The position numbers and the translations under genes are program-made. Under the pieces are notes generated by a model, which had not been told where the DNA came from, did not search any database, and saw only the letters and a list, made by a program, of their open reading frames with translations. A DNA stretch of 26,872 bases from a virus, in IMG/VR virus record IMGVR_UViG_3300034272_000362, positions 1 to 26,872 of that record; one strand, 5' to 3'. Of the stretch, positions 3,429-18,705 are shown piece by piece; position 1 is the first letter of the stretch; every line of letters begins with the position of its first letter.

Positions 3429-3690
3429 ATCCTTGTTTTGTATCTGTTCTGCTTACTCCACGCTCTGCGGAGTCAAGATTTTCTTGTTCTAATTCTATTC
3501 TACTTAGTATTTCGAACGCATCAAAGATAGCTAACTTTTTAGCTGCTGCTGCGTTCTTCATTTTATCAGCAGATACGTCAGTATCTGACTCGGTATTAAT
3601 AATATCTTCCTCAGCCACTTTTACAAGATGGTTGACCGCTTTGTACCCGGCTTCAATGATTCTTGACTTTATCTCTTTAGTGTCTCTCAT
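3403..3690 (-). CDS. Possible terminase small subunit
   Basis: 95 aa, ATG start at 3690, next to the preceding gene and overlapping the TerL start by 26 bp. The sequence is mostly helical and charged: an N-terminal helix (KEIKSRIIEAGYKAVNHLVKVAEE) and a central Ala/Lys-rich helix (NAAAAKKLAIFDAFEILSRIELEQ). Size, helical content and position directly upstream of TerL fit a small terminase that recognises the packaging site. No helix-turn-helix can be assigned by eye, so the call depends mainly on synteny. It could also be an unrelated small late protein. Confidence 0.4.
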   Translation of the reverse strand: MRDTKEIKSRIIEAGYKAVNHLVKVAEEDIINTESDTDVSADKMKNAAAAKKLAIFDAFEILSRIELEQENLDSAERGVSRTDTKQGFAERRSKQ

Positions 3691-4163
3691 TACTTAGCTT
3701 TTAAAAATATTACCTGAACCAATCGAGATTGTTCACCTGAGCCAAAGTTCTCAAGAATATTCCTTGAATGTGGGGCATCAGAGTTAAATACAACCATGCG
3801 GTTGAATTTAGAGTACATTGTAAGTAAAGGATTTTTATCTTTATCGTAGATAGTTGTTCCATCATTGTCAGGTGCTTGTTCATTTAAGTATAAAATACAA
3901 GTAATATCACCCATCATTTCATCAGTATGTATGAAATTTGGTTCTTTTTGATTTAATGGAGACTTCCTTACAAAGTTAAATGAAACACTGTATTGGTCAA
4001 ATAGTTCAGAAACGTACTGAGCGAACTCATCGTTATTATCTCTTGGCTGAATGTTTTTAAATATGTTCTCTCCATCTGCAATATCTTGAAAGCCATACTT
4101 GTGTATGTCATCAACATAAGCAACCGGGTCTTTTATTATATTATCAAGTGTAATCATATTCAT
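3690..4163 (-). CDS. 2OG-Fe(II) oxygenase-like protein
   Basis: 157 aa double-stranded beta-helix protein. Iron ligands are visible as H79-T-D81 (FIHTDE) and H132 (DAPHSR). R147 in SRLVQVIFLK fits the 2-oxoglutarate carboxylate-binding arginine. The stretch ITCILYLN (87-94) and the FNRMVVFNSDAPHS segment (120-133) match small prolyl-hydroxylase-like oxygenases (DUF6445-like). Such enzymes hydroxylate protein, nucleotide or other substrates using O2 and 2OG. The substrate here is unknown. It sits in the late operon between a GroES-like gene and the terminase genes, overlapping the former by 4 bp. That hints at modification of a virion or packaging protein, but this is inference. Confidence 0.75.
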   Translation of the reverse strand: MNMITLDNIIKDPVAYVDDIHKYGFQDIADGENIFKNIQPRDNNDEFAQYVSELFDQYSVSFNFVRKSPLNQKEPNFIHTDEMMGDITCILYLNEQAPDNDGTTIYDKDKNPLLTMYSKFNRMVVFNSDAPHSRNILENFGSGEQSRLVQVIFLKAK

Positions 4164-4723
4164 AATTTCATTGTTATTTGATGGTCATACATTCTGTACA
4201 ACTTTTCATCATCCACTGTGAACTCATATTCGCTGTCAGGAGAGAAGCAAATCATATCCCCGGGGTTTATGCCTTTCTTTAATAAGTATTCGTTAGGGTA
4301 CTTCATTATACCCATCAGTGGCTCCTCTGAAAAAGGCTTCTTGATATAACTCTCTGTAATGCCAATTGGTTTAACAAAACAGTATCTATCATAAGCATAC
4401 CACGTAGCGTTGTGCTTATACATAAAGAATTGGTCAGGCTCAATAAAAAATAGGTCGTCTTTAAAAAAAGACTTACCACTCTTTTGTCTGCCCTTCATGT
4501 CATTGTAAAACTTAAAGACATTATGGTGTACAAGAAGAGTATCTGACTTTTGAATAGGTCCGGAATAATCTAATGGCAACTCAACGACTTCTGCAAATCG
4601 GTTAGAAAACCTGTGGTCTTCTTCAGAGGTGCTGACAATAAAGTCAACACCACCTATCTCTTTTGTATTATCGTATCGCTTTCCATTAACCGGCTTGGCT
4701 ATGAAATAGAATGGCGACCTCAT
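4160..4723 (-). CDS. Protein with two GroES-like segments
   Basis: 187 aa. The C-terminal part (about 112-187) reads like a GroES fold: CFVKPIG start, then NPGDMICFSPDSEYEFTVDDEKLYRMYDHQITMKL (154-187). This is the arrangement of GroES, with GD, a short strand, charged turn, V-D-x-E and a final I-T/D strand. The N-terminal part (5-105) has a similar order: YFIAKP, FAEVVELP, KSDTLLVHH (59-67), and FFKDDLFFIEPDQFFMYK. It may be a duplicated GroES barrel acting as a phage co-chaperonin or scaffold, analogous to T4 gp31. It has no clear mobile-loop IVL tripeptide. A true GroES is encoded at 16256-16513. Structural prediction would decide. Confidence 0.45.
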   Translation of the reverse strand: MRSPFYFIAKPVNGKRYDNTKEIGGVDFIVSTSEEDHRFSNRFAEVVELPLDYSGPIQKSDTLLVHHNVFKFYNDMKGRQKSGKSFFKDDLFFIEPDQFFMYKHNATWYAYDRYCFVKPIGITESYIKKPFSEEPLMGIMKYPNEYLLKKGINPGDMICFSPDSEYEFTVDDEKLYRMYDHQITMKL

Positions 4724-5672: not shown

Positions 5673-8600
5673 TTAGTTATTTTTTAAAATGTCTATTTCT
5701 GCTTTTAATTCTTTTATTGCATTTACCATAGTAACTATAATAGCATTGTAATTTAATCCTATAAAGTTATTATTATCTTCATATGCTTTAGGTATAAAGT
5801 CTTTAACTTCTTGAGCAACTAAACCCACTTGTTTTTCATCTCCATCTTTTTGGAAATCCATATTGTAAAGTTTAGGCTGCAGTCCTAAAATTGCTGAAAG
5901 ACCATTTGAGTAAGTTTCAAAATTTCTTTTACGTTTTGCATCTGATGCAGCAACCCAAACAGATGAAGAGTTTAATAAAACATATCCTCCATTTGTTGAA
6001 TAACCATATAATGCAGAACCAAATCCTCCCAAATAACCACTATATGTGCCTTGATAACCTAATCCTAAACTTAATGTATTATTATCTGAAGTTATATTAA
6101 GAGCATTTCCTGTTCCACTAATATATGCCTGACGACCTGATGTGATACGCATAAATTGAACTTGATTAACCCCAATAGATAATCCATTTGCTTGAGCGGT
6201 TGTTATAACTGCATCCCAAGGAGATGAACCTGTTTGCAATTGAGCAGCTGTAGAACCTTCAACACCATAAAGCAATGAACCACTTGTATTAGTCCAATAA
6301 CCATATATATATCCTGTTGTTGCTCCTGTAACACGATGAACAAGTACATTATTACCAACATTATTAATCATATTTCCTGCCACCTGAAATTTTTGACCTC
6401 CATCTGTGGAACTTCCTATTAATACGTTACCACCTGATGTGATACGCATACGTTCTGAACCACCAAGTTTAAAGAATAAATTCATTCCACTTGTTATCTC
6501 TATCTCAGCATCAACATTTAAGTTGCTGACATTTGCGTTTAATTCAATTTTTTTACCACTTCTATTAAATGTAGCAACACCACTTGCAAGTTGCAAATCT
6601 CCACCTGATGTGATACGCATACGTTCAGCAATAGTTCCTCCATCAGGTTTAGTATAAAAATACATTAAGCCACCATTAGTACCTACTTTTTCAACTCCTA
6701 TTGAACCATTAATATTTGAACCTGCATTATTAGTAAAGTTCATTTGAGAAAAATCATCTGCTGACCTTGCTCGTAACTCTAAACCTATTGCACTACTTGG
6801 TGCAGTGGAAATAATACCACTCGAAAACGTAGCACTTGTTCCTGTTAACGCTTGTGCTAATGTAACTTGTTGACTTGTATTAATAGTTAATGCAGCCTTG
6901 CTTAAAGTACCTAAAATTAAGGATGTTGTACCTACTGTCTTTAATACTGTTGAATAAGATATACCACCATCTGCTACGCTTATTTGAGTTGGAGTAGAAC
7001 CCTCAACGCCAATAGCCATATCACCCGAAGTATTACCTATTCTAATGAATTTGGTTGTAGTTGATGCAGCAGTATTATTTATAAAATCATTTAACCCACT
7101 AAACGTAGCACTTGTTCCTGTTAATGCACCACTAAATCTACCCGTACCATTAACATCTAATTTATATCCTGCGTCTGTTGTAGTTCCTATTAGTACGTTA
7201 CCACCTGATGTTACAATTAATCTATCAATTGGACTACCTGAAGGTGATGTTTGCAAAGAAATGCCATAATTAACTGCATCCATTGCTATTTGTGCCCTTT
7301 GAGGGTAATTTACTGTATGATAACCTGCACCTATAGTTAAATTTACTCCCCCATTACCTAAAGAAATAAATGGATAATTATTAACTTCAGTACCACCGAC
7401 TAATTGAATATTAGGATAATTGGCATTATTTGCTGTTGAACCTAAAACCTTTAAATAGTTGCCTATTGTACTACCACTTCCTCCCACAGTAACACTACTC
7501 GAAAACGTAGCACTTGTTCCTGATAAAGCTCTGCTCACCAATGTAACAGTAGTTCCATCGTCAGTAATAGCACTATCTCCTATTGCACTTGCAGCAGTAA
7601 ACTTAGGTAAGAAATTAGTAGTACCTGTTCCTGTGACAGGGTTTGTTAGAACGCTTTGATATTGAGGTATATTTAAAGTGTTTCCGATAAATGTTGCTGC
7701 TCCACTTGTACCTGTGGTTGTAAGTGTGATAGTATCTTGTTTTGAATTAAAGGTAGTCCAATCAGCAGATGATAATACACCACGATTGGTAGCCGATGCA
7801 GTAGGTACGTTAAGCGTAATTACAGGGGTTGTGGTTGAATTTGCTACTGTTGATGATAAGTCAGTTCCACTTGTTCCTAAAGTTAAAGCAGCAACGCTTG
7901 TAACAGTTCCTACATTATATGTTCTATCTGCTGATAAATCTTGAGAAGTTCCGTTAATTGTTATAGTCCTTGATGTTGGAACACCTCCCAAACCTGATAA
8001 AGTATAGGTAGGTACATTTAAAACATCTGCTATAAATGTACTTGAACCACTCGAGCCTGTTGTAGTTAGCGTAATAGCGTTCTGCTTGTTATTAAACGTA
8101 CTCCAATTCGCTGAGCTTAATGCACCTCTATTTGTAGCACTCGCAGTAGGCAAATTAAAAGTATGTGTATCAACTGAACTTGAAATAGCAAAGTCAGTTC
8201 CACTTGTGCCGACTGCAAGGTATTGTGTTTGTTTGGTTAGTCCGTTTAATGCCTGTAAGCCTGTGGTGAATGTGGTAATTACTTGACATAAGTGAGCGCC
8301 TTCCGTATGTAACGTAATTGTTCTGCTTGAATTATTAACAAAAATTCGAACAGCAAGTCTATCGGTTGCTAACAATACAGTCTCGGGTACTGCTAAGGCT
8401 GAAAAATAAGGTTGTATTGATGTACCAAATGATATTAATTCAGGAGTTGCTGAATTACTCGCAATTAAAGTAAACGTAGTTCCATCAAATTTGTAAAGTT
8501 CAACATAAAAAGAAGGAGAACCACCCCCCGAAGAAGCACTAAAATAAGTTTCAAAATTCCAATTACCTGCTGGTATTAACAATGAATTAGGGTCATTTGC

Positions 8601-10754
8601 ATCCGTTAAGAATTGAGCAATGTAACCATTGGAAGAAATTGTAAAATCTGTACCTGCACCTAATATAGGCACTTTGTTCATTTCGTAGTACGTATTACCG
8701 CCAAATGTTCCCTGATTAACAGAACCATTTAGATAGTAAGATACCGAAGAACCACCTCCTCCTCCGCCTGTTGGGAAGTCAGCTAACTGTCCATCACCTC
8801 TAATATACTGCGATGCTAAACCTGCACCTGTTACTGCAATCGTTCCTGAACTTGTTATTGGACTACTTGCCACGCTAAAAGCAGCAGGCATTGATAAGCC
8901 TACTGAAGTAACTGTACCTACACCTACACCACCCACCAAAGCTAATGTACCTGTTGCAGATGGTAAAGTATATGTATATGTTCCGTTTGTAATTGTAGAG
9001 CCTAATGTTAGCTGACCTGTAAAGTTAGCAGTAGTTCCTGTTAAACCTGCTGCTGCATTTAAACTAAAATAAGATGTATTAACTTGAGTCGCTGCATCAA
9101 TCGCAAACATATTACCTCTGCCTGTGCTATGAAATAATATCTTCTCACCACTGCCTCCACCACCTGCTACACCTGTTCCTATAACTAAGGTTTGTACACC
9201 CTCTGTAAATGCTCCAAGCGTAGAATTTCCGCCTGTATAAATCTGCATATTGATGGTTGCCCCATCAGCCATAAATAGTCCTCGTCTTTGTGTAGGACTT
9301 GAGTTTATGGAAGTCCAAAACAAATCCCCTGCGGTACTACCCAAACTTGGACTTGCACTAAAAGTCTTAGCACCTGTCATTGTTTGAGTCCCTGCATCAA
9401 GTATCATTGTCCCACCAAAATTCGGAATAGTAAGAGTGTAATTTGAAGTTGCAGAACTTGATATATCATGATATTGTGTTGCAGGAACGGCATTATAAAC
9501 TCGTAATTTATCTAAAACAACACGACCATTTGAGCCATCTATTGCAGTTGTCGAACCTGTACCAAAGGTAACAGTCCCACCAAAAAATTTATTTCCTGCA
9601 AAACTTTGCGTTCCTGTAGTTACAACACCACCAAAAAATGCATCAGCAGGTTGTAAGTTTAAAACTGTTCCTGTAATAGTTGCAGCATTAGCGTTTGGAG
9701 TTGACCCAATAGCTGATAGTGATAAAACACCGCCATCTGCGTAATTAGGAATATTTAGCGTAGAACCTAATAAAGTAGCCGGACCCGATGTACCTGTTGT
9801 AGTTAAGGTAATAGCATCTTGCTTACCGTTTATTTGATTTTGTGCTTTGCCAAATGCTTGTAATATTGTATCGGTTGCTGTTATTGCTGCACCTGTAACT
9901 GAGAGACCTGTTAATATTTTACCTATTACAGCAGTGTTTGAAAGTGTAATAGCAACAGAGCCGGGTCCTGTAGCAGTAGCTTCACCCGTAAGAGCAGTAA
10001 TATAATTTCCTGCATTCTGTTTACCATCAAAGTTTATCCAATCCGTAGAAGATAAATAACCATTTTGAGTTGAATTTGCTACTTGAATAGAAAAAACACC
10101 GGTTATTGAATTAAAAAATAAAGGAGAAATTGCTGAGTAAGAAGGTAAATCAACCCATTGAACTCCTGTTACGGTACTACTTAATACCTTACCTAAGGTA
10201 CCAACTGATGCGGTTCCATCGGTTAATGTTCCGTCAATCGTTATATCAGTAGAAAAAGTTGCTGTATCTGAGCTAACATCTAATGCACTAAGGTTTGATG
10301 TTAGAATAATATCAACCGTTGATGTGTTTCCTTCAGTTAAAACTTGTTGTAAATTGGGAGTAAAAATAGGAGGAAGGCTGTACCATTCAACGCCTGCACC
10401 TGTACTTATAAGAACTTGACCGGCAGTACCAACAAAATCGTTCGAGTCAAATAAAGAACCTACTATATGAACTTCATCATTTAAATAAGTTATAAATAAA
10501 TTTGAGGTATTTGTTACGTCAAGATTAGTAGTAGTAATTGTACCAAATAGATTAATATCTTGTGTAGCTGTATTGCCAAAATTTAAAACCCCTTGCAAGT
10601 TATTTGCAGGAATGAAAGGAATAAATAGATTCAATAATTCTTGTAACGTAAAGTTGTACGTTACATCTTCTATTTCGCCACCAACGCTTGTACCAATTAG
10701 CTTATCGGCTAATTTAGGTACAGGTACAACTTCGTATGTACTAATCCTTGACAT
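5673..10754 (-). CDS. Tail fibre with S74 intramolecular chaperone domain
   Basis: 1693 aa, the receptor-binding fibre or spike. The N-terminal 50 residues (STYEVVPVPKLADKLIGTSVGG..YNFTLQELLNLF) look like a virion-attachment region and recur in the small protein just upstream. The shaft is Ser/Thr/Gly-rich with many degenerate beta repeats: blocks with LTTTGTSG and LNIP, SSADWTTFNSKQ-type blocks, ALTGTSATFS blocks, and RITSGGNVLIG blocks. The C-terminus is a peptidase S74 chaperone that trimerises the fibre and cleaves itself off: SDAKRKRNF from residue 1604, so S1604 with K1609 fits the Ser/Lys dyad, then LSAILGLQPKLYNM, GLVAQEV and a final helical coil. Matching DNA repeats (e.g. 6431, 6602) could allow recombination between fibre variants. 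Confidence 0.9.
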   Translation of the reverse strand: MSRISTYEVVPVPKLADKLIGTSVGGEIEDVTYNFTLQELLNLFIPFIPANNLQGVLNFGNTATQDINLFGTITTTNLDVTNTSNLFITYLNDEVHIVGSLFDSNDFVGTAGQVLISTGAGVEWYSLPPIFTPNLQQVLTEGNTSTVDIILTSNLSALDVSSDTATFSTDITIDGTLTDGTASVGTLGKVLSSTVTGVQWVDLPSYSAISPLFFNSITGVFSIQVANSTQNGYLSSTDWINFDGKQNAGNYITALTGEATATGPGSVAITLSNTAVIGKILTGLSVTGAAITATDTILQAFGKAQNQINGKQDAITLTTTGTSGPATLLGSTLNIPNYADGGVLSLSAIGSTPNANAATITGTVLNLQPADAFFGGVVTTGTQSFAGNKFFGGTVTFGTGSTTAIDGSNGRVVLDKLRVYNAVPATQYHDISSSATSNYTLTIPNFGGTMILDAGTQTMTGAKTFSASPSLGSTAGDLFWTSINSSPTQRRGLFMADGATINMQIYTGGNSTLGAFTEGVQTLVIGTGVAGGGGSGEKILFHSTGRGNMFAIDAATQVNTSYFSLNAAAGLTGTTANFTGQLTLGSTITNGTYTYTLPSATGTLALVGGVGVGTVTSVGLSMPAAFSVASSPITSSGTIAVTGAGLASQYIRGDGQLADFPTGGGGGGSSVSYYLNGSVNQGTFGGNTYYEMNKVPILGAGTDFTISSNGYIAQFLTDANDPNSLLIPAGNWNFETYFSASSGGGSPSFYVELYKFDGTTFTLIASNSATPELISFGTSIQPYFSALAVPETVLLATDRLAVRIFVNNSSRTITLHTEGAHLCQVITTFTTGLQALNGLTKQTQYLAVGTSGTDFAISSSVDTHTFNLPTASATNRGALSSANWSTFNNKQNAITLTTTGSSGSSTFIADVLNVPTYTLSGLGGVPTSRTITINGTSQDLSADRTYNVGTVTSVAALTLGTSGTDLSSTVANSTTTPVITLNVPTASATNRGVLSSADWTTFNSKQDTITLTTTGTSGAATFIGNTLNIPQYQSVLTNPVTGTGTTNFLPKFTAASAIGDSAITDDGTTVTLVSRALSGTSATFSSSVTVGGSGSTIGNYLKVLGSTANNANYPNIQLVGGTEVNNYPFISLGNGGVNLTIGAGYHTVNYPQRAQIAMDAVNYGISLQTSPSGSPIDRLIVTSGGNVLIGTTTDAGYKLDVNGTGRFSGALTGTSATFSGLNDFINNTAASTTTKFIRIGNTSGDMAIGVEGSTPTQISVADGGISYSTVLKTVGTTSLILGTLSKAALTINTSQQVTLAQALTGTSATFSSGIISTAPSSAIGLELRARSADDFSQMNFTNNAGSNINGSIGVEKVGTNGGLMYFYTKPDGGTIAERMRITSGGDLQLASGVATFNRSGKKIELNANVSNLNVDAEIEITSGMNLFFKLGGSERMRITSGGNVLIGSSTDGGQKFQVAGNMINNVGNNVLVHRVTGATTGYIYGYWTNTSGSLLYGVEGSTAAQLQTGSSPWDAVITTAQANGLSIGVNQVQFMRITSGRQAYISGTGNALNITSDNNTLSLGLGYQGTYSGYLGGFGSALYGYSTNGGYVLLNSSSVWVAASDAKRKRNFETYSNGLSAILGLQPKLYNMDFQKDGDEKQVGLVAQEVKDFIPKAYEDNNNFIGLNYNAIIVTMVNAIKELKAEIDILKNN

Positions 10755-15791: not shown

Positions 15792-16259
15792 ATGAAAACA
15801 CAACCACATGACTACCTAAAGTTTTGGAGAGTAATAAGATATTACATGAAATCCAAGCATGGTTTAGGTCAGGCTGACCTCGACATGATACTATTTTTAT
15901 ACTCAGAAGGCTATTTTGGAAAGGAAAGGTTCGATGAATTTGCTCAACTTGTAAGTTGGGAACTCGGAAGATTTGAACGACTACGCCACGAAGGGTGGAT
16001 TGAACGCTTCAGAAGGAAAGGTAAGGACGGTAAAGCACTTTATCAACTGAGTTATAAATCCACACGCATGGTATTGGACATCTACAGAAAACTAAATGGG
16101 GAAGAAATCCCCGTTAGCATATCAAGCAACGCAATGTTCCATAAGAATGTCTGCTACAATGACAAGGTTTACCGGAACATGATTCTCCAAATGAACGCCT
16201 ACCAAAGGGCAAACCCCTACCGGACCCCACCCAAGCAAGTCAAAGAAGAGGATGATTAA
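15792..16259 (+). CDS. Winged-helix-like protein on the plus strand within the late block
   Basis: 155 aa. LKFWRVIRYYMKSKHGLGQADLDMILFLYSEGYFGKERFDEFAQLVSWELGRFERLRHEGWIERFRRKGKDGKALYQLSYKSTRMV (about 9-94) reads as a MarR-like winged helix: helices ending in LSxAxLDM-LFLYSEGYF, a recognition helix, then a basic wing RKGKDGKALYQLS. The C-terminus is polar and Pro-rich. It is the only plus-strand gene between 1 and 19112 and converges with GroES (stops overlap by 4 bp). A role in switching late transcription is plausible. Related conserved proteins occur in other Bacteroidetes phages, from memory. Confidence 0.65.
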   Translation: MKTQPHDYLKFWRVIRYYMKSKHGLGQADLDMILFLYSEGYFGKERFDEFAQLVSWELGRFERLRHEGWIERFRRKGKDGKALYQLSYKSTRMVLDIYRKLNGEEIPVSISSNAMFHKNVCYNDKVYRNMILQMNAYQRANPYRTPPKQVKEEDD

Positions 16260-16513
16260 AGAACCACAACCACGTCACGCTCAGAGATGATGGTGTACTG
16301 CGTGTCATCTATCAGCATCGTAAAACTGTGAGCCTTGTCGTAGTACAACTCATCACCTTCCTCAATAACACTCACGTCAGTGCCCGGTGCTACGACAGAG
16401 GCACGCTTGTACCTTAGCTGATTGGTGTCTTCACCCGAAAGTACCAAACCACTCTCCGTGGTTATGGTCTCTTGGATGTCTTTTACTACGATATATTTCC
16501 CGATTGGTGTCAT
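16256..16513 (-). CDS. groES: Co-chaperonin GroES
   Basis: 85 aa, the lid of the GroEL folding chamber. MTPIGKYIVVKDIQE matches the first strand of GroES. TESGLVLSGEDTN is a candidate mobile loop with the hydrophobic tripeptide. EEGDELYYDKA and the final YTIISERDVVVVL complete the barrel. It is about ten residues shorter than usual. It lies in an operon with GroEL, separated by one small gene overlapping both. It converges with the plus-strand winged-helix gene. Phage GroES proteins can enlarge or retune the chamber for capsid proteins. Confidence 0.85.
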   Translation of the reverse strand: MTPIGKYIVVKDIQETITTESGLVLSGEDTNQLRYKRASVVAPGTDVSVIEEGDELYYDKAHSFTMLIDDTQYTIISERDVVVVL

Positions 16514-16761
16514 ATTCTTTTAAAAATTATTGGTTGATTGTCTGCAATGTATGAGCCTGCTATGTTGTACTCATAAAACTCAATAGCGTCCTCTGCGGTC
16601 ATGTTATCTGTCAGAATTAAGTTATGAATTATTGTGTCCTCGCAATACACAAGCCTCATGTCGTTGCTTACGCCAACAATGGCGTTGTCATGACCATCAA
16701 TCACAATGAACGCCTCATCCGGATATTGCTCAATTATGGTTTGTATCTTAAGATTGCTCAT
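16510..16761 (-). CDS. 83-aa conserved phage protein between GroEL and GroES
   Basis: Contains PDEAFIVIDGHDNAIVGVSNDMRLVYCEDTIIHNLILTDNMTAEDAIEFYEYNIAGSYIADNQPIIF. The MTxEDAIEFYEYNIAGSYI..PIF segment is a family seen across many environmental tailed phages, usually unannotated. It overlaps the GroEL 3' end by 14 bp and the GroES start by 4 bp. Position suggests a link to folding or to transcription timing, but the sequence gives no mechanism. Confidence 0.7.
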   Translation of the reverse strand: MSNLKIQTIIEQYPDEAFIVIDGHDNAIVGVSNDMRLVYCEDTIIHNLILTDNMTAEDAIEFYEYNIAGSYIADNQPIIFKRI

Positions 16762-18361
16762 ACGTTCGTGCCATGGTTATAATTGCGTTAGTACTTAGTA
16801 TCGTTACAGCCACACTCACTGCGTTCTGCAATGCACATCGTGTAACCTTTAACGGGTCAATGACACCCATCTCAATCAAGTCACCCATTACGCCTGTCTT
16901 CAAGTTGTATCCATGACCAACAGGAGTGCTGTCCTTGTACACGTCACTTGGCTTCAGTCCTGCGTTAGCAAGTATTTGTTGGAATGGAGCCATCAATGCG
17001 TTACGAACAATGCTTAATGCAGCATTATACTCTACACTTTTTGTTTCTTCACCCAACTCAGCACTCTCATCAAGCAATGCCTTGCCGGCACCGGGTAATA
17101 TACCCTCCTCCAAGGCTGACCTTACTGCACACACCGCATCGTCAACCCTGTCGTACAACTCTTTTTGCTCCAAGTCAGTCTGACCACCAACAAAGATGAC
17201 ACCAATGCCACCTGTCAATGATGCTATACGCTCCAACAGGAAGTCCTTGTCACCCTTTTTAGTCGCCTCACCATGTGCGTTCCACAACTGCTTGACACGC
17301 TCCTCAACGGCAGCCTCGTCAGACTTTGCTGCACTGCGAATAATGACCGTCTTGTCCTTGCTCACAATGACCTTTGCTGCGTGACCCAAGTCACCATAGT
17401 GCATAATGCTCAAGTCATCACCGGTCTTCTCACTGAAGTAGGTCGCACCCACACTTATCGCTATGTCCTGCATCAACTCATGCTGCTTGTATCCGAAATT
17501 TGGCGGAGGCACAGCTACAACCTTCAAGTTCCCCTTCATGCTGTTCGCTGAAAGCGTGTTCACCACGTTCACATTGCACGGAGAAATTATTAATAGCTTC
17601 TTGCCCTCAGAAATTATTGGCTTCAACACGTTCTCAATCTGTAATATATTCGCTATCTCCATGTCAGCAACCAACACCATCACGTCCTCAAACACACACT
17701 CATCCTTCTTGGTGTCATTAATGAACAACGGACTCAAATACCCCCTGTCAATCTTTAACCCCTTGGTCGTCTCAGCATACGTCTCAGCAGTCTGACTCCG
17801 CTCCACCGTAACAATACCGGTCTTGCCCACATCTTTGTACACCTCAGAAATAATACGCCCTATCTCACGGTCATTGTTAGCCGAGATAGATGCCACATCT
17901 AAGAGCATCGCACTACTAACCTTCTTCGCCTTACGCTTCAGCTTGTCCACCACCTTAGTGCTTATGTCCACCATGTGTCTGAGCACCTCAGTCCTGTTCA
18001 TCTCCTCATTGATGTGCTCAAGTCCTCCCAACACCAAACCCTCTGTCAACACAATAGCCGTAGTCGTACCATCACCTGCCGCAGTGGCAGTCTTGTCTGC
18101 CGCCTCCCTCATCATCTTAACCGCAAGGTTCTCACTCGGGTCAATCAGGTCAATAGCCTTCGCCACCGTTACACCATCCTTAGTCACGGTGATGCCGTGC
18201 GTGTGATGCGGACTCTCAATCAAGACCGTGTTCCCACTTGGACCCAAAGTCGACTTGACAGCCTTTGACATTTTAATAACTCCACTGATTAATTTCTTGC
18301 GTCCTTCGCTTCCGAATTGCAAGTCCTTGGGTGAATACCCAATTCCTGATGTCTCTACCAT
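16748..18361 (-). CDS. groEL: Phage-encoded chaperonin GroEL
   Basis: 537 aa ATP-dependent group I chaperonin. Conserved features: TLGPSGNTVLIE (38-49), KDGVTVAK (61-68, D62 for nucleotide), GDGTTTA (96-102), and the late RVDDAVCAVRSALEEGILPGAG block carrying the catalytic Asp (D398 of E. coli). Length is close to bacterial GroEL (about 545), so it has all three domains. Notable differences are the absent GGM tail (it ends ARTYEQS) and many apical-domain changes. It is led by the non-SD leader AATCAAATG and a TATATTTG -7 element. Presumed clients are phage capsid or fibre proteins. Confidence 0.95.
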   Translation of the reverse strand: MVETSGIGYSPKDLQFGSEGRKKLISGVIKMSKAVKSTLGPSGNTVLIESPHHTHGITVTKDGVTVAKAIDLIDPSENLAVKMMREAADKTATAAGDGTTTAIVLTEGLVLGGLEHINEEMNRTEVLRHMVDISTKVVDKLKRKAKKVSSAMLLDVASISANNDREIGRIISEVYKDVGKTGIVTVERSQTAETYAETTKGLKIDRGYLSPLFINDTKKDECVFEDVMVLVADMEIANILQIENVLKPIISEGKKLLIISPCNVNVVNTLSANSMKGNLKVVAVPPPNFGYKQHELMQDIAISVGATYFSEKTGDDLSIMHYGDLGHAAKVIVSKDKTVIIRSAAKSDEAAVEERVKQLWNAHGEATKKGDKDFLLERIASLTGGIGVIFVGGQTDLEQKELYDRVDDAVCAVRSALEEGILPGAGKALLDESAELGEETKSVEYNAALSIVRNALMAPFQQILANAGLKPSDVYKDSTPVGHGYNLKTGVMGDLIEMGVIDPLKVTRCALQNAVSVAVTILSTNAIITMARTYEQS

Positions 18362-18388: not shown

Positions 18389-18396
18389 CAAATATA
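18389..18396 (-). promoter_or_regulatory. Candidate -7 element TATATTTG upstream of groEL
   Basis: Minus strand TATATTTG (perfect TAnnTTTG), about 27 bp before the groEL ATG. Two TTTG/TTGAC-like stretches lie upstream, at shorter spacing than the ideal 19-21 bp, so the -33 assignment is weak. The same -7 octamer is used before other genes in this window. Confidence 0.5.
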
Positions 18397-18421: not shown

Positions 18422-18705
18422 ATGTCGATTTTTTCTGAAATAATGTCGATTTTATTTTAAGCAAAAGTGCCCTAACGATACCAACAACAAAGATTATGGT
18501 GTGTTAACACCTACAAATGACGAAATGTCAAAAAATTTTCCCCTATTACTCTATATATATTTCCCTCCTTTTTATTTTTTTTTCCACTACATTTCTTCTT
18601 TTTTTTCGACATTTTCGACATTAAAGAGATAAAGTATTAATAATCAATAAGTTATAAAAATCAAATCGACATAAAATCGACATAAAAACATACTAAAAAT
18701 GTCGA
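18422..18705. repeat. Seven-copy ATGTCGA/TCGACAT array, possible origin or operator region
   Basis: Non-coding, AT-rich. ATGTCGA occurs at 18422 and 18443, TCGACAT at 18606, 18615, 18666 and 18677, and ATGTCGA again at 18699. That gives two clusters in opposite orientation around an AT-rich centre (pyrimidine and TATA runs, 18541-18605). A 10-bp palindrome GTGTTAACAC lies at 18501-18510. Layout fits a replication origin with iterons or a multi-site operator between the late and early blocks. No protein partner is shown by the sequence. Confidence 0.55.

Follow-up and report, generated by a model that had tools for sequence, protein, structure and literature searches.

A phage GroEL–GroES operon accompanied by a probable tandem-domain co-chaperonin in an IMG/VR virus record

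A Phage Chaperonin With Two Probable Lids

The IMG/VR virus record IMGVR_UViG_3300034272_000362, a stretch of 26,872 nucleotides (nt) referred to here in its full length as the window, carries an operon for the chaperonin GroEL and its co-chaperonin GroES. On balance, we favor the reading that the phage has a self-sufficient Group I chaperonin of its own, with a dedicated lid of 85 amino acids (aa), a passenger gene in its operon, and a probable second lid of tandem type. The operon is real, and its GroEL–GroES pair is one more member of a known set, because Elemovirus, Callevirus, and the genome MW202828 already have annotated GroEL and GroES. The literature searched did not yield the probable tandem nature of the second lid or the probable two-lid arrangement. 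A preliminary description of this DNA had reported a complete GroEL, a small gene, and GroES, and all three were found to be intact, on the minus strand, and at the positions given in this paper. The components of the proposed machine are as follows.

16748..18361, minus strand: Group I chaperonin (GroEL/Cpn60), 537 aa, no GGM tail; assigned by Pfam, PHROG, and ATP-site residues
16256..16513, minus strand: co-chaperonin GroES/Cpn10, single domain, 85 aa, shortened roof; assigned by Pfam PF00166
4160..4723, minus strand: 187-aa protein, probably a second co-chaperonin with a pair of Cpn10-like domains, encoded near the terminase gene

Conservation was assessed in 82 loci, namely the best 80 of 476 IMG/VR stretches, MW202828, and the window, which together comprise 71 distinct GroEL sequences. 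Residue positions of GroEL follow the numbering of Escherichia coli.

The Ring Protein and Its Origin

The window GroEL matches the full-length Cpn60 domain of Pfam (PF00118; 192.9 bits, cut-off 34.3) and PHROG 5725, “chaperonin groEL” (E = 3.5e-132). GroEL and GroES/Cpn10 occur together on the same strand in all 82 loci. The ATP-site and catalytic residues T30-L-G-P, K51, D52, D87-G-T, T91, D398, and D495 are invariant in the 82 GroELs, as are G414 and G416; T90 is kept in 81, and G415 is replaced by A in 81. At the level of sequence, there is good support for an active phage chaperonin, and we consider it very probable that the protein forms an active ring capped by the 85-aa protein.

The preliminary description had noted the lack of a GGM tail, and this was confirmed for the window GroEL and for every member of the family (82/82). 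The tail is also absent from the GroELs of phi40:1, phi14:2, EL, AR9, and the Elemovirus phage of Flavobacterium sp. BAL314 (NC_055853; hereafter elemoF), so a GGM-less tail is ordinary for phage chaperonins. The statement that phage GroEL is rare was too strong: 261 of 50,697 phage records match GroEL at E ≤ 1e-3, and the 476 IMG/VR stretches encode relatives. A few of these 261 records (“Acinetobacter phage MD-2021a,” Salmonella) resemble bacterial DNA. Both CAKLQF020000019 and CAKLQH020000021 are labeled Acinetobacter phage MD-2021a, and in the former groS-groL-dgkA resemble an ordinary bacterial chromosome.

A host groE operon captured recently, with host-like function, would also yield a full-length Group I chaperonin, and the window GroEL does exceed the cut-offs of two NCBIfam GroEL subfamilies (for NF009487, 492 vs. 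352 bits). However, it lies below the cut-off of the housekeeping equivalog TIGR02348 (452.7 vs. 582.1 bits), and its identity to bacterial GroELs in alignments is just 37–41% (38.9% for E. coli). In phylogenies built with bacterial and phage sequences, the window GroELs form their own clade, apart from the bacterial GroELs and on a long stem (support of 97/90 in one tree, and of 100 by the Shimodaira–Hasegawa-like approximate likelihood ratio test in another); the GroEL of MW202828 falls inside this clade. Five clade members (L083–L086 and L179) were taken from metagenome-assembled genomes, whose labels are mixed, and presumably represent phage contigs. The gene order, GroEL before GroES, is also the opposite of that in E. 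coli, where groS precedes groL. The low bacterial identity and the separate clade argue against recent capture and rule it out for the sampled genomes, so that we regard this explanation as extremely improbable. Of the two objections that the preliminary description had foreseen, near identity to a host copy is answered by the bacterial identity of approximately 37–41%, and a loss of ATPase residues by their presence in 82/82 GroELs. A grouping of the window clade with the GroELs of elemoF and Callevirus was not recovered in the tree, a result that long branches make unsure.

The Single-Domain Lid and Its Fit to the Ring

The 85-aa GroES scores 40.2 bits against Pfam Cpn10 (PF00166; cut-off 21.1) and stays below the cut-offs of the NCBIfam housekeeping GroES models (best, 34.2 vs. 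120 bits). The hydrophobic tripeptide of the mobile loop, [L/I/M]xL after a glycine, is present in 81 of the 82 proteins and reads LVL in the window; the lone exception reads EDL and may be an artefact of the pattern. The roof segment measures 10–11 aa in 82/82, compared with 17 in E. coli.

On the side of the ring, L234, L237, and V264 of E. coli GroEL have been reported to touch the GroES loop (PMC3514286). In the phage apical domains, Y199, F204, and N265 are invariant (82/82) and L237 is kept in 81, while position 234 (L in E. coli) is E in 79 and T, Q, or D in the remainder, position 263 (V in E. coli) is A or S, and V264 is replaced by A in all 82. Since this contact surface is changed and yet consistent, ring and lid may have diverged together from the host pair; judging from the residues, they would match one another but probably not their host counterparts. 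Positions 105, 109, 461, and 464, which we take to form the ring-ring interface in E. coli, also differ: 105 is E in 62 and 109 is E or D in 65 of the 82 GroELs (K and A in E. coli), and 461 is K in 70 and 464 is D or E in 76 (E and V in E. coli). Because these positions are changed and charged, single rings are possible.

Two points tell against a ring that depends on a lid. The GroES-loop contacts L234 and V264 are both altered, and therefore lid binding could be weak, and the chaperonins of phages EL, OBP, and AR9 reportedly function with no co-chaperonin (PMC9598537). The ring might thus work lid-free or split into single rings, as in those three phages, with the GroES-like genes as accessories. 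The changed ring-ring positions would agree with this, as would the report that the EL chaperonin dissociates into single rings with ATP (PMC7185714). EL gp146 and the AR9 chaperonin resemble the window protein in being phage GroEL-like proteins without a GGM tail, but they are only 23–26% identical to it and differ in their reported independence of a co-chaperonin. Against a lid-free ring, GroES accompanies GroEL in all 82 loci with its mobile loop kept, and a ring of that kind would not need this loop. Single rings are compatible with the use of a lid, so that only the lid-free part is truly a rival to the capped ring, and we consider this alternative improbable.

The Second, Probably Tandem Co-Chaperonin

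The second co-chaperonin-like gene, at 4160–4723, had been missed in the preliminary description. Its 187-aa product matches phrog_13932, “co-chaperonin GroES” (E = 2.7e-18), and its AlphaFold2 model has a predicted local distance difference test score (pLDDT) of 75.7 and a predicted template modeling score of 0.73. The best Protein Data Bank match of the model is 7ekq_R, which extends across residues 1–187 (Foldseek E = 6.3e-4; Z = 10.2, 158 aligned residues, root-mean-square deviation 3.8, 12% identity, for a model of moderate pLDDT). The molecule name of 7ekq_R is Cpn20 co-chaperonin subunit, the chloroplast protein with tandem Cpn10 domains, whereas single co-chaperonins match residues 103–187 only (Z = 6.2–8.8). 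The window protein and Cpn20 come from different organisms, and the comparison does not point to a common origin.

Relatives of the 187-aa protein were found in at least 598 IMG/VR stretches and in 77 phage records, and of 21 long contigs from the window clade, 19 carry a homologue. Fifteen of 31 relatives match the Cpn10 signature weakly (best E = 0.011). The homologous gp089 of phi40:1 (E = 3.4e-34) exceeds the Pfam Cpn10 cut-off (28.2 vs. 21.1 bits), in its C-terminal half only. By inspection, the N-terminal loop NGLIL of the tandem-type protein of elemoF resembles SGLIL of single lids. From the models and these relatives, we consider it probable that the 187-aa protein is a co-chaperonin, and the most likely form is a tandem-domain co-chaperonin of the Cpn20 type.

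Several observations weigh against this assignment. The window protein has no Pfam or NCBIfam match above cut-off, no internal repeat was detected in it (hhalign E = 0.088), and it matches the profile of the 85-aa family weakly (probability 11%). The five AlphaFold2 models span pLDDT values from 47.5 to 75.7, and the N-terminal half of the model is matched well by Cpn20 alone. Finally, the gene sits in the packaging module and not beside GroEL. The protein could have a Cpn10-like fold and yet not serve as a lid, acting instead alongside the terminase in the head or in packaging; the chaperonin would then be a plain GroEL–GroES pair. In line with this, all but one of 153 loci have a terminase gene 166–1,483 bp farther downstream on the same strand (some contigs being counted twice; the sole exception has just 295 bases left), and oxidoreductases, too, contain GroES-like folds (matching the 187-aa model at Z up to 4.9). 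However, the structures nearest to the model are all co-chaperonins, with the tandem Cpn20 as the best, and homologues of the protein are already annotated as cpn10/GroES. Furthermore, the 77 phage records with the gene all belong to groups in which some members are known or reported to have GroEL, a comparison made at the level of groups. We find a packaging role somewhat doubtful and retain the reading of the 187-aa protein as a probable second lid.

Between this gene and the terminase gene lies a gene for a 157-aa protein (3690–4163, minus strand), which shows a weak match to 2OG-Fe(II) oxygenases (29.3 vs. 27 bits).

Comparison With Other Phages and With Chloroplasts

The combination of ring, single lid, and probable tandem lid is kept in at least three phage groups, the window clade, Elemovirus, and Callevirus. 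In elemoF, as in the window, GroEL is followed on one strand by a GroES (83 aa), and a 180-aa “co-chaperonin GroES” precedes the terminase, with the portal after it, so that the same three-gene set is present. Unlike the window, elemoF has no insert gene in the operon and no TCGACAT array (described below) near GroEL, and its GroEL and GroES are 35 and 28% identical to those of the window. The Callevirus phages phi40:1 and Calle_1 of Cellulophaga also have GroEL and a single Cpn10 (91 aa in phi40:1). A tandem-type gene, gp089, lies in the structural block of phi40:1, and Calle_3 and phi38:1 have a matching gene; the Calle_1 stretch that was compared does not cover the site of any tandem gene. 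These phages differ from the window in the order Cpn10, small gene, GroEL, and in the location of these genes in the replication gene cluster, and the Callevirus GroEL is 37% identical to that of the window. The closest named genome is MW202828, a circular podovirus of 60.8 kb from Manatee Spring, with identities of 59.5% for GroEL, 64.7% for GroES, and 74.6% for the tandem-type gene. Its convergent neighbor is at the same place as in the window, but its GroES abuts GroEL without an insert gene, and its tandem-type gene is annotated as hypothetical.

In published work, GroEL has been reported in 36 environmental genomes of the phi38:1 group (PMC5332604), GroEL and GroES in a Maribacter phage (PMC11590407), and a related phage GroEL, phi38:1 gp054, as a protein detected in infected cells (PMC13288928). 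No description of tandem or paired co-chaperonins in phages was found in the literature searched, which largely excluded subscription papers. Our proposal resembles chloroplast Cpn60, a ring reported to be served by both single- and tandem-domain co-chaperonins (PMC5780408). If the proposal is correct, it would be the first viral two-lid arrangement of the chloroplast type found in that literature and would provide a second, independent system for studying how a lid protein with two domains can work on a ring with an odd number of subunits. The three-gene arrangement occurs in cultured phages and is thus directly testable.

The Insert Gene Between GroEL and GroES

The small gene of the operon has the following position.

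16510..16761, minus strand: cargo gene of 83 aa, phrog_13182-like, overlapping GroEL and GroES

The preliminary description had presented this gene as conserved and as overlapping both of its neighbors. The overlaps were verified (14 nt with GroEL and 4 nt with GroES), but the conservation holds only in part: of the 82 loci, 31 have a homologue inside the GroEL–GroES interval (in one case a fragment of just 46 aa), and the other 51 lack it. The protein matches phrog_13182, which has no assigned function (E = 4.3e-16). Its structural model (pLDDT 90.0) has no structural match at E ≤ 0.001, and no solved relative was found (best E = 0.73).

The overlaps and the recurrence of the family in 31 loci would be expected of a functional partner of the chaperonin. 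However, we judge such a role to be highly unlikely, given the 51 loci that lack the gene. Among 80 viral loci with relatives of the 83-aa gene, 16 have GroEL within 4 kb and 64 do not. Unrelated small genes also occupy the same gap; among their products, as named by inspection, are a small membrane-like protein (21 loci) and HNH-like and MazG-like proteins (5 loci each). The interval ranges from −4 to 3,478 bp with a median of 411 bp, and is ≤ 20 bp in 10 of the 82 loci. Because its content and length vary and the relatives of the 83-aa gene are mostly found away from GroEL, we interpret the interval as a cargo site and the gene, from these comparisons, as a changeable passenger and not a part of the machine.

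Proposed Function and Clients

We infer the assembly of the ring, the use of its promoter, the identity of its clients, and the capping of this ring by both lids. In the proposed mechanism, an ATP-driven ring of the GroEL type would be expressed during infection from its own promoter region. The rings would bind non-native phage proteins, and ATP and the dedicated lid would shut the chamber, which the shortened roof of the lid would make unlike that of the host. Phage proteins would be folded inside, most likely head proteins, a client assignment that we propose tentatively, with T4 gp31 and the T4 capsid protein as the analogous case (PMC5780408).

The 187-aa tandem lid would act with the 85-aa lid, or alternate with it, on the same ring. 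Single and tandem co-chaperonins of chloroplasts are reported to build mixed lids of seven domains (PMC5780408). By analogy, the 85-aa and 187-aa proteins might co-assemble to seven domains, for example from one single and three tandem proteins, although we consider such a mixed lid unlikely. If true, it would be an independently arisen viral counterpart of chloroplast Cpn10/Cpn20 that tunes the chamber for head proteins.

The preliminary description had also named a 1693-aa fiber protein (5673–10754, minus strand) as a possible client. At its end (residues 1604–1657), this protein has a Peptidase_S74 “chaperone of endosialidase” domain. The Cpn60 cage encloses about 60 kDa. Because the fiber has its own intramolecular chaperone domain and its chain exceeds the size of the cage, it is an unlikely client.

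Upstream Elements and Genomic Setting

Three further features flank the operon.

18389..18396, minus strand: TATATTTG, which fits TAnnTTTG, just upstream of GroEL
18422..18705: seven-copy array of TCGACAT/ATGTCGA repeats, noncoding, upstream of GroEL
15792..16259, plus strand: convergent gene of 155 aa, phrog_17028 (no assigned function), whose end overlaps the end of GroES by 4 nt

TAnnTTTG is the −7 promoter consensus of Bacteroidota. It occurs within 100 nt upstream of GroEL in 77 of the 82 loci, compared with a mean of 6.1 in shuffled sequences, although shared ancestry inflates this count. The motif is not enriched across the window as a whole (28 occurrences vs. 33.3 expected); the enrichment is confined to its constant position ahead of GroEL. 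From this promoter-like element and the relatives, the host would be a member of Bacteroidota; the bacterial contigs that hold relatives bear mixed labels and do not settle the host.

TCGACAT was the most enriched 7-mer upstream of GroEL in an unbiased count. The window has seven copies in the 600-nt stretch upstream of GroEL, in mixed orientation and with several spaced 9–22 bp apart, and one copy elsewhere. Over the loci, its density is 6.1 per kb upstream of GroEL vs. 0.085 per kb elsewhere (approximately 70-fold), and two or more repeats are present in 71 of the 77 loci with enough upstream sequence. The array could consist of operator or origin repeats.

The placement of the operon at the start of the late block, as in the preliminary description, holds loosely. 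The 155-aa convergent gene is present and adjacent to GroES in 82/82 loci, and because this plus-strand gene separates GroES from the late minus-strand genes, GroEL–GroES is not simply the head of a late operon. In MW202828, the gene at this position is annotated as “repressor protein.”

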